Shown here piece after piece: positions 49,102 through 55,993 of a DNA stretch of 64,000 nt. Position 1 is the first letter of the stretch. Every line of letters begins with the position of its first letter. A program made the translations under genes and the position numbers. This stretch comes from Lysinibacter sp. HNR (GTDB lineage: Bacteria > Actinomycetota > Actinomycetes > Actinomycetales > Microbacteriaceae). Below the pieces are notes generated by a model. That model had not been told where the DNA came from and did not search any database. It was given only the letters and a program-made list of their open reading frames with translations. The stretch covers positions 1,302,001-1,366,000 of the forward strand of contig NZ_CP121684.1 of the NCBI RefSeq assembly GCF_029760935.1. The letters are read 5' to 3'.

Positions 49102-50037
49102 ATGACCCAGCCGACTGTTAGCGCATCCCGTCTCACCAAGCGCTTCGGAGAACGTGAGGTAATCTCGGCCGTCTCGTTCTCGGTGACCCGAGGACGGGCG
49201 TTCGGGCTGCTTGGGCCGAACGGGGCGGGTAAGACCACCATCATCCGACTGCTCAACGGTCTACTGACCCCTGACGGCGGTGCCGTCACCCTCTTCGGGG
49301 AACGGGTGAACGCGCGAAACGCGGACGCACTCAGGCAGCGGATCGGCGTGCAGACGGACACAAATCTTTATGACACGCTTTCGGCCCGCGAGAATCTGCG
49401 CACGTGGGGTGCGCTCTACGGCATCGAGCAACGCTCTCTTCGTAGTCGTGTGGACGAGATACTGCACACTTTCGGTCTCACTCGTCGCGCAGATTCGCTT
49501 GTGGGAGAGTTCAGCAAGGGGATGCGACAGAAGCTCGCGATCGGGCGCGCGATTATTCACAAGCCTGATTTGTTATTCCTGGACGAGCCGACGGCAGGCT
49601 TGGATCCCGAAGCGGCCTCCGAGCTCATAGGTTACCTGAGAAAGATGATCCAGACACTGGATACCACTCTGGTTATTTCAACGCATCAGCTTGCGGGACT
49701 AGAGGCCCTGTGTGACGACATTGGCATCATCAAGCAGGGTCATCTCCTTGCTGCTGGACCTGTGGATGAGATGCTTCGGCAGGAGTGGCCAGGGAACCGC
49801 TACACCCTAAGTGTTAACGGCGACTATGACGTGGCCCACCGTATCGTGACTTCGTTTGCCACCGCAGACAAGACTGCGGGCAGTGAGATTGTGTTCCACA
49901 CCGATGACGAGCAGACCATCTCTCAGGTTGTTGCAGCGCTCGTGCACGAAGGTGTTGGAGTGCGTGCGGTGATTCCACAGCACCCAACAATCGAAGAGTT
50001 TTACTTCACTACGCTTGATAAGGAGGCAAACGTATGA
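49102..50037 (+). CDS. ABC-2 exporter ATP-binding protein
   Basis: From ATG 49102, 311 residues. Walker A LLGPNGAGKTT, Q-loop GVQTDTNLYDTLSARENL, signature FSKGMRQKLAIGRAI, Walker B LLFLDEPTAGLDP, H-loop ISTHQ. The C-terminal 80 residues are the regulatory extension of DrrA/NatA-type ATPases. It overlaps the permease ATG. Confidence 0.94.
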   Translation: MTQPTVSASRLTKRFGEREVISAVSFSVTRGRAFGLLGPNGAGKTTIIRLLNGLLTPDGGAVTLFGERVNARNADALRQRIGVQTDTNLYDTLSARENLRTWGALYGIEQRSLRSRVDEILHTFGLTRRADSLVGEFSKGMRQKLAIGRAIIHKPDLLFLDEPTAGLDPEAASELIGYLRKMIQTLDTTLVISTHQLAGLEALCDDIGIIKQGHLLAAGPVDEMLRQEWPGNRYTLSVNGDYDVAHRIVTSFATADKTAGSEIVFHTDDEQTISQVVAALVHEGVGVRAVIPQHPTIEEFYFTTLDKEANV

Positions 50038-50891: not shown

Positions 50892-51129
50892 GTTTCAATT
50901 GTGATGAAGGCCGGATAGGGGCGACAGCTTGCTCCTCTGTCTGGTTTCTCGGCCCCTGTGCGCCCGGCATTTGCTGCACCAGATCTTGCCCTACGACGAT
51001 TTTTCGGTCGACATTGAGCTGCACTAACCAGAGTGTAGCTCCGAGGACAGCGTCCGTTGTCTCTCGGACTGCATTGACACACTGACGCAAACGTGTCGGG
51101 AGTGCCTGTTCCAATTTTGTGAGAGGCGT
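50892..51129. other. host-side gap before the prophage
   Basis: I find no supported gene in these 238 bases. A 78-codon minus-strand frame covers most of it but has no recognisable domain. The tRNA-Val fragment starts immediately after. Confidence 0.4.
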
Positions 51130-51173
51130 GGGCGATACCGGACTCGAACCGATGACCTCTTCCGTGTGAAGGA
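51130..51173 (-). other. attL: 3' part of tRNA-Val (CAC)
   Basis: The minus strand reads CCTTCACACGG (anticodon arm, CAC), AAGAGGTCATC, the T arm GGTTCGAGTCC and the acceptor strand GGTATCGCCC. The D arm and 5' acceptor strand are absent and are replaced by element sequence. Host DNA lies on the 3' side (left), so the element extends rightwards and a complete tRNA-Val is expected at the other junction. Confidence 0.88.
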
Positions 51174-51788: not shown

Positions 51789-52100
51789 ATGGAGATCACG
51801 AAGAGCATCGACTCAGACACCACCACCTACACCCTCTGGGTAGACGGCACCGAAGTCTCAGAGCTTATGCTCTGGACAGGCACCCGCGAGGTGGCAAACA
51901 TCGAAACCGCGACCGCCTACCAGGGCCAGGGTTTTGCTCGCGCTCTCTGGGAGCACGCAAGCGCAGAAGCCGAGTGTTTCCACTCTCTCCCGCACCACCG
52001 CACCCACGAGGGTGACGCTTTCGCCCGTGCCGTCGGAGGAGAAACAATCTCCGAGGAAGACGGCTTTCAGGACGTGTGCAGCATCTGCACAGACCAGTAA
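51789..52100 (+). CDS. small GNAT-like protein
   Basis: 103 residues. After a short beta region (YTLWVDGTEVSELMLW) comes VANIETATAYQGQGFARALW, where QGQGFA fits the acetyl-CoA-binding Q/RxxGxG/A motif of GNAT enzymes. HEGDAFARAVGGE resembles the end of small phage GNATs. The fold would be minimal. First gene of the casA operon. The anti-CRISPR AcrVA5 is also a small GNAT that acetylates a PAM-reading residue, which is why this neighbour matters; equivalence is not shown. Confidence 0.65.
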   Translation: MEITKSIDSDTTTYTLWVDGTEVSELMLWTGTREVANIETATAYQGQGFARALWEHASAEAECFHSLPHHRTHEGDAFARAVGGETISEEDGFQDVCSICTDQ

Positions 52101-52119: not shown

Positions 52120-52488
52120 ATGACTACCCACAATTTTGACCTTGACGCATGGCTCGGCGATACCGAAGCCACACCCGAGCAACGCGCAGCGCTCATCGAG
52201 GCGCTAGACGGGATCGAGAAGCGCTACCCCCACGCGGATCTAGAGGATTCCCGCACGGATGCTTCTCGCGGGGCGCTAGAAATCATTCTGGATAGCGAAA
52301 ACCCCGAGCAGACCCTAGAGGATCTCGGGCTAGAGTGGCAGCGCGCGAAACTCAAAGAACGGGAGCGAATGGCTGTACTCACCGGGGCGATCATCGCTGC
52401 GTCTGCACACATGACAGAGGTTGATATCGCTCGGGTAGCGCAGGTAAATCGCACCACCGTGCGGGCGGCTCTGCGGAAAGACAAATAA
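52120..52488 (+). CDS. small C-terminal helix-turn-helix protein
   Basis: 122 residues from ATG 52120 after AAAGGAG. Acidic helical N-terminus (DLDAWLGDTEATPEQRAALIE) and a C-terminal HTH, MTEVDIARVAQVNRTTVRAAL. It ends one base before casA. By size and place it resembles anti-CRISPR-associated (Aca) repressors that control their operons, and the palindrome at 51763 is a candidate site. No direct family match is claimed. Confidence 0.7.
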   Translation: MTTHNFDLDAWLGDTEATPEQRAALIEALDGIEKRYPHADLEDSRTDASRGALEIILDSENPEQTLEDLGLEWQRAKLKERERMAVLTGAIIAASAHMTEVDIARVAQVNRTTVRAALRKDK

Positions 52489-52489
52489 A

Positions 52490-53920
52490 ATGAGCACTTT
52501 TAATCTTCTTTCTGAGCCGTGGATTCCTGCTGTCACAGGCACAGGTATTGAGGATATTTCGATACGGCGTGCACTGACAGACAGCGGGGTAAAAAAGATT
52601 TTAGGAGACACCCCCGCACAACGCTACGCCCTACACCGACTACTGCTAGCTATCGTGCAGCGCACACTCTCCCCGGAGCAATGGGGGTCTGTGTGGGAGT
52701 CCGGCACACTGCCCCAGGCTACCCTCGATGCGTATCTAGACCAGTGGGGACACCGCTTTGACCTCCTCGACGAGGTCGCCCCATTTTTTCAGATTGCAGG
52801 TCTCACCTCGGCTGGACGAAAGCCCACGACCGGGGTTGGGGGGATTGTCCCGGGCGGGTTTTTTGCGATACAAAAACCTACCACCAAGATCACATTGGCG
52901 GAGGGTGCCCGGTGGATAGTCCACGCCCATGCCGCGACACCCTCCGGGATACGCCCCGGAACCGTGGATGATCCACGGGTTTCAGGCGGGAGGTCGTACC
53001 CGACCGCGCCCGGGTGGGCGGCCTTTTCAGGTGGGGTCTTTTTGGAGTCTGACACGCTCGTAAAAACGTTGCTAATGAATGTTGTGGATGATCTTCCCGG
53101 GGTTCCTGCATGGGAAGACCCCGTCGCAGGCACGGAATTTGCACCGCGCGAAGACCCGGAGGGGCTGGAGTTGTATACCTGGCAGAGTCGCCGCATTCTC
53201 GTGACCGGAGTATCACAGGGCTACATCACCGATGTACTGGTCTCTAATGGGCACCCGCTACAGGCCTCGTGGGGTGGACGTGATCCCATGGTGACGCTCC
53301 GCACAGACAGGGACGGGTCACGGCAGATCATCTCACCGCTGTGGGCGCTTATCCCTGACATACTGGGCGAGGGTGGCCCCCGGACGCTGCAGGCACTCCA
53401 CACCCGTGGTCTTCCGGCACAGACCCCGCTGAGAGTGACGGGTGCACGGGTGGCTCTCGGGACAATGGGGTCGGTGGTGACCGATGAGGTGGACGGGGTT
53501 TTTGATGTGGCACTGGGAGATTTACGGTCACCAGGTGAGGGAGCTGGGGCTGTGGCCGTGGCAGCGCACGGGCTGAGAGCAATTTATCTCTCATTCTTGA
53601 AAGAGCTGTGGAAGATCACCAGCGACACGGCGACTTCTGCGGAGGGGGTGTATTTCTCCCAGATACTCGACCAGACCGTCACCGACACGCTTAAAACCCG
53701 TGATCGTATAGTTTTTGAAAACGGATTTCAGGATATCCTCCGTGAGGCCGATGACGTCGCTGCATCAAAAACCGACGGACACGATTTTGTGCGGAGGCAA
53801 AAAATTTACATGGTGTATACAGGTCTTCTCCGTAAGGCCGTAAAGCGTCTGCACTGGGGAGACGATCTTAGTGAGGCCCAGTATCTCCCCGTCGAAAAGC
53901 CTGTGGTTGACAAAAGCTAA
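52490..53920 (+). CDS. casA: stand-alone Cse1/CasA (Cas8e), type I-E Cascade large subunit
   Basis: 476 residues. It opens with FNLLSEPWIP, the family start; WGHRFDLLDEVAPFFQIAG and LYTWQSRRILV (TWQSRR at 230-235) are hallmark segments; the C-terminal 120 residues form a helical bundle (GLRAIYLSFLKELWKI onwards). Cse1 reads the PAM, opens the target DNA and recruits Cas3. No other cas gene is in the window. It shares an operon with the GNAT-like and HTH genes, one base apart from the latter. At 476 it is slightly shorter than most (about 500-560). It may join, replace or decoy the host subunit. Confidence 0.88.
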   Translation: MSTFNLLSEPWIPAVTGTGIEDISIRRALTDSGVKKILGDTPAQRYALHRLLLAIVQRTLSPEQWGSVWESGTLPQATLDAYLDQWGHRFDLLDEVAPFFQIAGLTSAGRKPTTGVGGIVPGGFFAIQKPTTKITLAEGARWIVHAHAATPSGIRPGTVDDPRVSGGRSYPTAPGWAAFSGGVFLESDTLVKTLLMNVVDDLPGVPAWEDPVAGTEFAPREDPEGLELYTWQSRRILVTGVSQGYITDVLVSNGHPLQASWGGRDPMVTLRTDRDGSRQIISPLWALIPDILGEGGPRTLQALHTRGLPAQTPLRVTGARVALGTMGSVVTDEVDGVFDVALGDLRSPGEGAGAVAVAAHGLRAIYLSFLKELWKITSDTATSAEGVYFSQILDQTVTDTLKTRDRIVFENGFQDILREADDVAASKTDGHDFVRRQKIYMVYTGLLRKAVKRLHWGDDLSEAQYLPVEKPVVDKS

Positions 53921-53946
53921 GAGAGGTGATTTCATACATTTATGGC

Positions 53947-54123
53947 TGTTTTCCCTGCGTAGCAGGGGTGATCCAAGTTGACATTTTTAAGAGAATGTTT
54001 TCCCTGCGTAGCAGGGATGACCCGACTTGACATCTTTAAGAGAAGTTTCCCTGCGTAGCAGGGATGACCCTAATTTCGTACAGCTAGTCATATCGAGCTA
54101 ACATTCCCCGCGTAGCGGGGCTT
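53947..54123 (+). CRISPR. CRISPR-like mini-array, type I-E repeats, in the casA 3' UTR
   Basis: Repeats begin at 53947 (28 bases), 53996 (28), 54045 (26) and about 54100 (degenerate). Core is TTCCCTGCGTAGCAGGG then GTGATCC or ATGACCC; type I-E repeats end GGGGATGATCC. Spacers are 21, 21 and about 29-33 bases. The first two are 18/21 identical, unlike real acquired spacers. Repeats 1-3 have CCCTGC/GCAGGG and repeat 4 has CCCCGC/GCGGGG: a compensated base pair. Orientation equals casA transcription. Confidence 0.78.
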
Positions 54124-54124
54124 A

Positions 54125-54158
54125 AAGGGGGGTCACACTTTCGAGTGTGGCTCCCCTT
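54125..54158 (+). terminator. intrinsic terminator after casA and the mini-array
   Basis: A 15-bp stem (AAGGGGGGTCACACT with AGTGTGGCTCCCCTT, two G-U pairs) closes a TTCG tetraloop; CGTTTA follows. It would end the casA transcript after the fourth repeat, so the repeats are part of that RNA. Confidence 0.8.
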
Positions 54159-54209
54159 CGTTTATGTGGAGGCAAGATTGCTCATGCTACTAGCATTCAC
54201 TCACACAAT

Positions 54210-54257
54210 AGTGTACACTGGTGTATATATACAGAAACGTACACTTTTGATAGGAGG
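54210..54257 (+). promoter_or_regulatory. palindrome-rich promoter region of the next phage gene
   Basis: AGTGTACACT (54210-54219) and GTATATATAC (54223-54232) are perfect palindromes, and CGTACACT follows at 54238. GTGTAC-type half-sites recur, suggesting an operator. A strong AGGAGG (54252-54257) precedes the ATG at 54263. Confidence 0.5.
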
Positions 54258-54262
54258 TCTCT

Positions 54263-54685
54263 ATGGCTACATCACCCCCCACTGCCAGCCAGCAGCTTTT
54301 TGCTGAGTTGTCCCTGGCCCTGGTAGAACCGTCCCGCGCGCTACTCGGTATGGATATAGCGAATCTTTTAGAGAATCGTCTTGCGGGCCGCACGGATTCG
54401 CTCCCCGACGAGGCTCTAGTAGAGCCAGAAATCGCCAGCGATATTATCTGGGCGATTCACCGTGGACTCCCGCCCCTCGCCTGGTGGAACACCCCGCTCG
54501 GGCTAGCCTGCGCACAGGGCGCTTTAGGAGCGCTGGACGAGCGGATTAGCTACCGTGATGCGGCTACTATCCTCGGGGTCAGCACCAGCGCCATACAAGG
54601 ACTCGTCTATCGCAAAAAAATCGTCCAGCACGGTGACGGGATCGACCTAGCCAGCACACTCAAAAGACTTCTAGACAAAAAATAG
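54263..54685 (+). CDS. phage helix-turn-helix protein
   Basis: 140 residues. N-terminal helical region, a Trp-rich PLAWWNTPLGLACAQ segment, and a C-terminal MerR/excisionase-like HTH (YRDAATILGVSTSAIQGLVYRKKI). Likely DNA-binding; may regulate its own palindromic promoter. It is not similar in motif to Cse2 or other Cas proteins. Confidence 0.65.
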   Translation: MATSPPTASQQLFAELSLALVEPSRALLGMDIANLLENRLAGRTDSLPDEALVEPEIASDIIWAIHRGLPPLAWWNTPLGLACAQGALGALDERISYRDAATILGVSTSAIQGLVYRKKIVQHGDGIDLASTLKRLLDKK

Positions 54686-54707
54686 TTACACCCTAAAAAA
54701 TAATAAA

Positions 54708-54736
54708 GCCCCGGCGAGTGATCAGACTCCCGGGGC
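54708..54736 (+). other. GC-rich hairpin between two phage genes
   Basis: GCCCCGG and GAGT pair with ACTC and CCGGGGC (one bulged C) around GATCAG. No T-run follows. It resembles the hairpin at 55,496 in form and place, so both may be partial terminators or RNA-protein sites. Confidence 0.45.
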
Positions 54737-54762
54737 ACGGACAGATCGAGAAAGGATCTATC

Positions 54763-55482
54763 ATGAGTAAGAATATCACCTATAGCCGCAGCGAAATTGC
54801 CTACCAAATCGCGGAAACTCTTGACGAGGTGGGGGCCACTATTGCTGTCGATTCCACCTCCTACGATATAGAAAAAATCGTAGACACTATCACTATCCCC
54901 ACTAAAACCGGGTGGGAGCTACGTCCCGAATTCGCGGATTCCCTCGACACCCTCGGCGACGATAGCAAGGCCGATGCCTTCTGGAACATTGTGGGACAGT
55001 GCGACATCAGCGCAGACCTCGCCGCAGCTGAGGAGGCACGCGACGAGGAATTTCACCAGCTGGTACTCTCTCACGCACAGCGCAGCCACCACCTCGAACT
55101 TTTTCCCCTTGTCATTGGGGATGTTACTCTTACGCTCCCCAACAGTTTCAGAAAGGGTGGGTTCACTGTGTGGCCGACCTCGGAGCATTTCTGGGGGCAA
55201 ATCGATACCCCTCACGAAACCCTCACATTCGACACGAGCCTGGGGTCGTGGGGGGCACTCCGCGCCGCTATCACTCAGGCTCAGGAAGATTTCGAAGCGA
55301 GCGTCAAGGAGTCCTTGGAGATCTCGCGGACGCTCAAAAACCACACCTATGCAAAATTGAGAGAGGCAGAAATCGCTCTGGAGGAGGCTCGTCAAGAGCA
55401 TGCCGAGGCCGTGGCCGCCTGGCAGAAAAACCAGGAACGACACGATGAGCTAGCGGGACGCACGGGCGGTCGCGATAAATAA
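54763..55482 (+). CDS. phage protein of unknown function with C-terminal coiled coil
   Basis: 239 residues from ATG 54763 (AAAGGA upstream). N-terminus ITYSRSEIAYQIAETLDEVG; middle region with aromatic FTVWPTSEHFWGQ; residues 190-235 are a charged coiled coil (KLREAEIALEEARQEHAEAV). No family recognised. Last gene of the accessory block. Confidence 0.6.
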   Translation: MSKNITYSRSEIAYQIAETLDEVGATIAVDSTSYDIEKIVDTITIPTKTGWELRPEFADSLDTLGDDSKADAFWNIVGQCDISADLAAAEEARDEEFHQLVLSHAQRSHHLELFPLVIGDVTLTLPNSFRKGGFTVWPTSEHFWGQIDTPHETLTFDTSLGSWGALRAAITQAQEDFEASVKESLEISRTLKNHTYAKLREAEIALEEARQEHAEAVAAWQKNQERHDELAGRTGGRDK

Positions 55483-55495
55483 CCCGCAAAACAAA

Positions 55496-55537
55496 ATATA
55501 GCCCGGGGAGAATGCTCACAATCTCACCGGGCTATAT
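55496..55537 (+). terminator. hairpin after the accessory block
   Basis: ATATAGCCCGG and CCGGGCTATAT pair perfectly over 11 bp around a 20-base loop that can pair further (GAGA/TCTC). It lies 14 bases after the last stop. The right arm touches the neighbouring CRISPR-like repeat. Confidence 0.6.
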
Positions 55538-55634
55538 TATCCCCGCAAATGCAGGGCCAAATTGTTATCCGCATCGCTTTACTACAAGCAAAGTTCCAAT
55601 AAATACGGATCATCCCCGCCAAGGCGGGGCACTT
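55534..55634 (-). CRISPR. second pair of type I-E-like repeats, opposite strand
   Basis: On the minus strand the repeat at 55634-55607 reads GTGCCCCGCCTTGGCGGGG followed by ATGATCC, very close to a classical type I-E repeat. A degenerate copy (GGCCCTGCATTTGCGGGG then ATAATA) lies at 55561-55534. The 45 bases between can form their own hairpin (CTTTGC/GTAAAG), so this looks like structured RNA more than a guide spacer. I-E spacers are normally 32-33 bases. Confidence 0.6.
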
Positions 55635-55637
55635 GTC

Positions 55638-55666
55638 AGTGTAGCACACGATCACGGTACAGGCAC
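55638..55666 (-). promoter_or_regulatory. possible promoter of the minus-strand repeat RNA
   Basis: TGCTACACT is an extended -10. GTGCCT, 17 bases upstream, is a weak -35 (three of six). Initiation six to seven bases later falls at the first bases of the CRISPR-like repeat, as would suit a solitary-repeat RNA. Confidence 0.35.
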
Positions 55667-55749
55667 CTACCATATGGGCGGAGCACTTGGGGTATACTTA
55701 TTTTGTAATCTTACGGTTGCATGGTTTTTGTGTAGTAACTATTAACCAA

Positions 55750-55791
55750 AAAACGCCCCGCCCTAGTCCGAAGACCAAGGCGGGGCGTTTT
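55750..55791. terminator. bidirectional terminator of the lysis module
   Basis: AAAACGCCCCGCC and GGCGGGGCGTTTT pair perfectly over 13 bp around 16 bases, with A and T tracts at both sides. It ends the leftward tail/lysis transcript and blocks rightward reading. Confidence 0.9.
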
Positions 55792-55795
55792 GTTT

Positions 55796-55993
55796 CTACT
55801 CTGCCGCATGCCGACCACGCGGCGTGTTTACTCCTGCGAGCACTGGCGCACCGGTACCGAGGATCGCCGCGACCAGAGATAGCCAGAGACCGCCGTGTTC
55901 AGCGGTCAGGACACCTATCGCTGTCAGGAGCGGTACGAGAGCCGCTGCGATACCGTATATCCACCGGCGTGCATTGTCTGATTTGATCCACAT
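55796..55993 (-). CDS. phage holin
   Basis: 65 residues with two hydrophobic stretches (IYGIAAALVPLLTAIGVL and LWLSLVAAILGTGAPVLAG) and charged ends, as in short actinophage holins beginning NARRWIYG. It is the last gene of the lysis module and would form the membrane lesion that releases the amidase. Confidence 0.8.
   Translation of the reverse strand: MWIKSDNARRWIYGIAAALVPLLTAIGVLTAEHGGLWLSLVAAILGTGAPVLAGVNTPRGRHAAE

Follow-up and report, generated by a model that had tools for sequence, protein, structure and literature searches.

We consider it fairly probable that a prophage of Lysinibacter sp. HNR carries an anti-CRISPR island, in which repeat decoys and a Cas8e homologue would share one transcript and a further small unit would yield a cas-repressing guide mimic. 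This reading started from the sequence of a 64-kb stretch of the host genome (hereafter the window), and it is based on repeats resembling those of the host, on the order of genes and terminator, on recurrence in another phage, on dense self-targeting of the prophage, and on a seed shared with a PAM-flanked site upstream of the host casA.

Prophage, host CRISPR system and phage casA operon

The prophage is approximately 43 kb long and extends from 51128 to 94380 (window numbering, continued beyond its end). It carries endolysin, tail and tape-measure genes and is bounded by a 27-bp att-like direct repeat, whose left copy lies at 51128-51154 and whose second copy lies at 94354-94380 (L017, 10354-10380). 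That the att site is the end of a tRNA gene is a guess; ARAGORN detected no tRNA between window positions 50000 and 56000.

The host possesses a single, intact interference operon (cas3-casA-casB-cas7-cas5-cas6e). Two Cse1 matches were found in its genome, one of them being the prophage casA, and Cas1 had no match there. CRISPR arrays were located on the host contig (G000:C1) at 185438, 403020-404424, 414125-414266, 2714964-2715345 and 2726363-2727790. They display two kinds of type I-E repeat, one with a GTA loop and one with an ACAC loop, yet the genome has one Cas6e match. In the array at 403 kb, the last two repeats (within 403020-403161) are degenerate, with a CCCTGC stem and an ATGACCC handle, and the last two complete spacers are identical, i.e. 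a duplication at the leader-distal end.

Self-targeting was assessed with 61 distinct host spacers (from the arrays retrieved, after removal of duplicates and of the final spacer in every array) against 104 kb, i.e. the window plus the stretches L016 and L017. Fourteen of them find a protospacer in the prophage at 0-3 mismatches, six of these being exact; the spacer ranking next has 8. All 14 protospacers lie inside the att repeats and beside 5'-AAN, AAC being the commonest PAM (9/14), and the corresponding spacers come from both host repeat types. Since self-targeting is this dense, suppression of the CRISPR system is expected; in such a lysogen one would look for either an anti-CRISPR or a silent CRISPR system. 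A silent host system could account for the tolerance of self-targeting; the proposed island, for its part, may explain how the prophage survives the CRISPR guides aimed at it.

All genes of the phage casA operon are on the plus strand. The leading one (51792-52100, 102 aa) has no assigned function and no Pfam or PHROGs match, and a homologue is found on the phage contig L039 (39 % over 90 residues, L039:5267-5608). It is followed by a small HTH gene (52120-52488, 122 aa; weak PHROGs HTH match, E 0.00079), homologues of which precede casA in the phage contigs L038 (46 %) and L039 (33 %). An exact protospacer of a host spacer lies inside this HTH gene, at 52184. Its product is possibly a regulator of the casA operon. 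Another homologue (32 %) is encoded at 2518-2886 of L053, a phage contig with a major head protein, and no casA-like ORF was noticed among the ORFs listed on that contig.

The casA/cse1 gene itself (52490-53920) encodes a compact Cas8e homologue of 476 aa. It was assigned by Pfam Cse1 (E 2.5e-51, residues 5-279, 175.7 bits for a cut-off of 24.7) and by TIGR02547 (119.9 for a cut-off of 70.05), both matches being N-terminal only: the protein is Cse1-like over its first 280 residues, the remainder being divergent and short. It shares 26 % identity with the host CasA over 219 residues. The predicted structure, of modest confidence (mean pLDDT 61, pTM 0.66, 8 sequences), has four C-terminal helices at residues 353-455. 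When this model was used as query in a structure search, the top 18 rows were all chains of Cse1 or of Cascade (best Z 25.7, over 368 residues, 7.3 Å) and Foldseek gave the same Cse1-like picture; helical bundles ranking below the Cse1 rows were set aside. From the model, we take the phage CasA to be a compact Cas8e homologue and not a fragment. The ORFs listed and scanned beside the phage casA include no casB, cas7, cas5 or cas6e, so that it is a lone cas gene inside the prophage, as on three further phage contigs. The glutamine of the conserved YGTQ motif of Cse1 serves in PAM sensing, and this motif reads LGTM in the phage CasA. The idea that this marks a loss of the PAM-sensing glutamine was dropped, as L039 retains Q and L026 has N.

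Repeats R1-R4 behind the phage casA

Four I-E-like repeats (R1-R4, plus strand) are situated between the casA stop (53920) and an intrinsic terminator-like site of 15 pairs (54125-54158, terminator scan). Their hairpin cores start at 53953, 54002, 54049 and 54106, i.e. with start-to-start distances of 49, 47 and 57 nt, shorter than the 60-62 nt of the host arrays. Alignment in the 27-nt register of the host repeats places R1 at 53948-53974, R2 at 53997-54023, R3 at 54044-54070 and R4 at 54101-54127. In the 64-kb window, the motif CCC[CT]GCN2-5GC[AG]GGG occurs on the plus strand at seven places, namely R1-R4, 55541, 55614 and 63861, and the count in R1-R4 was reached by none of 2000 dinucleotide shuffles of 53921-54124. 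The terminator scan predicted no plus-strand site between the casA stop and 54125. The repeats and the Cas protein gene directly upstream of them, both described in an earlier note on this DNA, are thus borne out. Folded singly, each of the four repeats is predicted to form a hairpin; in the optimal fold predicted for the region as a whole, the repeats pair with one another instead of forming individual hairpins, and we count this against the island.

Comparison with the host I-E arrays, which the note had called for, revealed a clear likeness. R1-R4 resemble the host repeats with a GTA loop (arrays at 185, 403, 414 and 2715 kb): alignment scores against these 27-nt repeats range from 18 to 23 (20-23 for R1-R3) versus 15 against the other host type, found in the array next to the cas operon. 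The 15-base stem-loop of R4 is identical to the host repeat, and R4 lacks the 3' handle, reading CTTAAAG where host repeats have ATGATCC. The change of one stem pair between R1-R3 (T-A) and R4 (C-G, as in most host repeats) is real. Columns 9/17 pair among the nine distinct rows (CG in five, UA in three and UG in one) and are the only pair altered on both sides; as 445 of 500 control shuffles match that count, this single pair is weak evidence of the selection on the hairpin that the note had proposed. At the same stem pair, the host 403-kb array has T-G in its two leader-distal repeats, which also carry the ATGACCC handle found in R2 and R3; this hints that repeats of this kind were the source of the phage copies.

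The gaps between the repeats measure 22, 20 and 30 nt in the host register. They hold the spacers S1 (gap 53975-53996), S2 (54024-54043) and S3 (54071-54100), of approximately 21, 19 and 29 nt when counted after the variable 28th base, for host spacers of 32-33 nt. Two nearly identical 21-base spacers had been claimed: S1 and S2 are indeed similar, the 49-nt units starting with R1 and with R2 being 90 % identical, but their lengths differ, and S3 is unlike both and cannot be called short. A CRISPR array has near-identical repeats and unique spacers of constant length; R1-R4 depart from this definition, since the repeats differ, the gaps vary in length and S1 resembles S2. The possibility that S1 and S2 are decayed copies of the casA 3' end was rejected (294/2000 and 149/2000 shuffles, respectively, aligned equally well).

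Related arrangements were sought in viral contigs. An alignment-guided scan identified three further casA genes, on L038, L039 and L040 (36 %, 33 % and 21 % identity to the CasA of the window, respectively), all on contigs carrying tail, terminase or tape-measure genes. L038, an unrelated phage, has the layout of the window, with a short casA followed by a pair of I-E-like hairpins (48 nt from one to the next) and a terminator-like stem; these hairpins are the sole motif matches in its 8.3 kb, and 0/2000 shuffles reach their count. On L040, two tandem hairpins stand before the casA operon (count reached in 9/2000 shuffles). No such hairpins were detected by the motif scan at the casA of L039, which we count against the island. 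Altogether, hairpins accompany the casA operon in three of the four phage loci, the window included. A host array was sought for the L038 phage, and its first repeat occurs in none of 398 family genomes. Single-sequence viral scans with casA and the two HTH-type genes yielded no confirmed relative, and the viral scan with A4 returned L038 and L039 only. Two entries labelled bacteriophage, both hit in searches with the phage CasA, were not counted as phage casA: MT835722.1 (L050), with cas3-to-cas1-like ORFs that appear to form a complete I-E operon and with a CRISPR array by eye, is probably a bacterial contig, and MT839398.1 is a 4.3-kb fragment. Besides the host, 15 of the 398 family genomes have matches to the phage CasA (36-47 %, over parts of its N-terminal 312 residues), in frames of 547-840 codons that are longer than the phage casA; the ORF content of four loci found by the genome-contig scan marks them as chromosomal Cascades.

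Between the repeats and the minus-strand unit described below stand two genes of no known function (54263-54685 and 54763-55482), which had no match in Pfam, PADLOC or PHROGs. Their products could be the actual anti-CRISPRs, or regulators. Overlapping palindromes at 54205-54249, upstream of the gene at 54263, are a possible operator of an autoregulated operon. An Rfam search of 53800-55800 gave nothing at E up to 1.

Three other explanations of R1-R4 were weighed. The repeats might be the end of a host array that was captured and is now decaying without function, the anti-CRISPR activity residing in other genes or RNAs of the prophage. The T of the stem and the ATGACCC handle that R2 and R3 share with the leader-distal repeats at 403 kb, the missing handle of R4 and the two adjoining proteins of unassigned function agree with such an origin. 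Mere decay fits poorly with a layout that recurs behind the casA of L038 with different repeats, with stems that are kept in R1-R4 (T-A being a full pair in R1-R3) and with a position just before the terminator, so that we judge it unlikely. Cis control is just as doubtful in our view: Cas6e cleavage, or the stems themselves, would set the stability of the casA mRNA, no decoy being involved, and CasA output would follow the presence of Cas6e. Hairpins that lie in a casA 3' UTR, no terminator being predicted ahead of them, and that are found again after the casA of L038 are what cis control would produce; the hairpins of L040 stand upstream of the operon, L039 has none, and one cut would need no four copies.

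The order repeat-spacer-repeat, together with the mini-arrays aimed at other viruses that some viruses carry (PMC6858448), could also suggest real guides sending Cascade to a competitor phage or a host site. The target searches make this very improbable, in agreement with the note, which had held two of the spacers not to be acquired guides. With up to 3 mismatches allowed, neither S1 nor S2 has another place in the genome, blastn found no match of the R1-R4 region in the phage collection, and no seed of S1-S3 adjoins a PAM at 0 mismatches in the stretches searched, the best being at 1 mismatch for S1 and 2 for S2 and S3; moreover, two of the spacers are near copies and too short.

The creR-like minus-strand unit and its host counterpart

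A mini-CRISPR (repeat, 44-nt spacer, repeat) is located on the minus strand at 55534-55634, 1.4 kb from R1-R4. This unit was absent from the earlier note and has a more specific signal. Its first repeat, R_A, lies at 55607-55634 and its second, R_B, at 55534-55561 (by alignment, the limits of R_B being approximate), and the spacer occupies 55562-55605. A -10-like TGCTACACT precedes it, i.e. TACACT after TGC (55638-55643, minus strand), noticed by eye and aligned with TAGACT of the host unit described below. A terminator-like inverted repeat with a T-rich tail, also noticed by eye, follows on the same strand (55489-55538) and shares bases with the end of R_B; the terminator scan, which admits loops of 3-8 bases, did not list it, as the loop here is longer. 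The promoter scan predicted no full sigma-70-type promoter at the unit, and none on the plus strand upstream of the host casA; both results were counted against our preferred reading.

The counterpart of this unit lies in the gap between the host cas3 and casA genes (L014:12860-12930, i.e. G000:C1 approximately 2720860-2720930, minus strand). It comprises a degenerate first repeat, a 32-base spacer (the usual host length) and a second repeat resembling those of the array adjacent to the cas operon. The two units share an exact match of 21 nt, made up of the first 17 spacer bases (55605-55589 in the phage unit) and the four preceding bases. Between the cas3-casA gap and the prophage, the match ranking second in length measures 13 nt, on the other strand at approximately 91230, and was rejected, being without further likeness.

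With up to 1 mismatch allowed, the genome holds the 15-nt seed at three sites: the phage unit, the host unit and a site upstream of the host casA, where it adjoins an AAC PAM. We infer from its position that this upstream region is the promoter of the host casA. In the creR test, a seed was required after a CC-type handle and again after AA: the seed-plus-PAM pair was present in one of 20 casA-upstream regions, that of the host, and in none of the 19 others. A second candidate creR, L024, was rejected, its seed not recurring within the 1.5 kb searched. The mimic pattern (repeat end plus seed, exact) occurred 0 times in the viral contigs, and the mini-CRISPR unit had no blastn match in phages or plasmids. 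Both the host and the phage units have the form of a CreR, i.e. a crRNA-like unit with partial complementarity and a PAM near a cas operon. CreRs are also encoded with the cas locus; as the phage unit resides on the prophage, more than 1.3 Mb from that locus, we call it a mimic and not a CreR.

The minus-strand unit might simply be an inherited copy of the host creR that represses nothing and acts at most as an extra decoy crRNA. The phage and host units align over their full length, so the seed may be merely inherited, and in an I-F test system a non-targeting crRNA also lowered interference (PMC10651486). The first 17 spacer bases have nevertheless been kept unchanged while the remaining spacer diverged and grew to 44 nt, and the first 15 recur upstream of casA, next to a PAM. 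We therefore hold plain inheritance to be rather unlikely, and retain the reading of the unit as a cas-repressing mimic for the model that follows.

Proposed action of the island and comparison with known systems

Transcription, Cas6e processing, CasA replacement, repression and inhibition are steps that we infer from the sequence. In the proposed model, a temperate phage residing in a self-targeting lysogen would direct the island against the single type I-E system of its host. The casA transcript would end in four hairpins resembling host repeats, which the host Cas6e would bind and cut. The products would be short pseudo-crRNAs with non-targeting spacers of approximately 19-29 nt, and these would sequester Cas6e, Cas7 and Cas5 in unproductive complexes. 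Translated from the same transcript, the phage Cas8e homologue would take the place of the host CasA on the pseudo-crRNA complexes or on normal Cascades. In parallel, the minus-strand mini-CRISPR would give a guide with the CreR seed, leading the host Cascade to the region upstream of the host casA and so lowering Cas production. Decoys alone may titrate the CreR-Cascade and free the cas promoter, and the mimic would re-impose repression; because titration relieves CreR repression, a phage using decoys would profit from restoring it. There is a tension in this model, as a phage CasA preventing DNA binding would at the same time stop the mimic from repressing. A way out would be that CasA permits DNA binding and fails later (e.g. 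at Cas3), or that the parts act at different times. We see an even chance that the copied CreR makes the host Cascade silence the casA operon and, alongside a multi-unit decoy and a Cas8e homologue, prevents a rise of Cas. If so, it would be a guide-RNA anti-CRISPR acting on cas transcription, and phages would counter the CreR feedback loop with the same kind of RNA. With parts of this small size and a defined seed and PAM, the model is directly testable, and the phage casA family (window, L038, L039 and L040) provides a handle for finding similar islands.

Several known systems share features with the island. Repeat mimics (Racr) were reported by Camara-Wilpert et al. (2023) to inhibit I-E systems, as shown there for two I-E Racrs (PMC10651486). 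The SRUFinder search of that study put arrays and mini-arrays aside, and its discussion states that repeat-like sequences can mediate Cas-dependent repression (PMC10651486). As far as the cited sections of that report go, Racr and R1-R4 are alike in being phage-borne copies of host repeats, in each case on a prophage residing in a host with the matching system; a Racr is one unit, whereas R1-R4 are four repeats with short spacers behind a cas gene. A Racr resembles the host repeat, as R1-R4 do, and is solitary, with no other repeat within 100 bp, whereas R1-R4 lie 47-57 nt apart. R1-R4 were for this reason not filed as Racr, though they may work like one. The note had likened them to solitary-unit RNA anti-CRISPRs: host likeness, the layout of L038 and self-targeting speak for the repeat-mimic part of that claim, and the solitary part has to be given up.

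The phage CasA recalls AcrIB3 (a Cas5 mimic) and AcrIB4 (a homologue of the Cas8b C-terminus), described by Katz et al. (2024) and reviewed in PMC13131331, in that each is a lone homologue of a Cascade subunit carried by a phage. Unlike these two, as presented in the cited text, it is a near-full-length homologue of the I-E Cas8e, a putative inhibitor, and has repeat mimics behind it. Virus-borne mini-CRISPR arrays likewise consist of short repeat-spacer units that would use host Cas proteins, and certain orphan arrays of viruses carry spacers directed at genes or intergenic regions of the host (PMC8616872). The present case is unlike the mini-arrays covered by these sources in that no match to another virus was found, and the sole targeted guide points upstream of the host casA.

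The closest counterpart of the minus-strand unit is found among the CreRs (Liu et al. 2023), which repress I-B, I-E and V-A cas genes; titration of Cascade releases this repression and raises Cas (PMC12737573, PMC13131331). A CreR and the phage unit have in common the order repeat-spacer-repeat and a seed that is complementary to a limited, PAM-flanked stretch upstream of a cas operon. In the cited parts of these reports the known CreRs are described as the host's own, whereas here the copy is on a prophage and has a 44-nt spacer. In the open literature (subscription papers and preprints lying outside this scope), no report of a phage-borne CreR mimic was found. RNA anti-CRISPRs have so far been described as single repeat mimics; the island proposed here would bring together a repeat series, a Cas8e homologue and a copy of a cas autorepressor.
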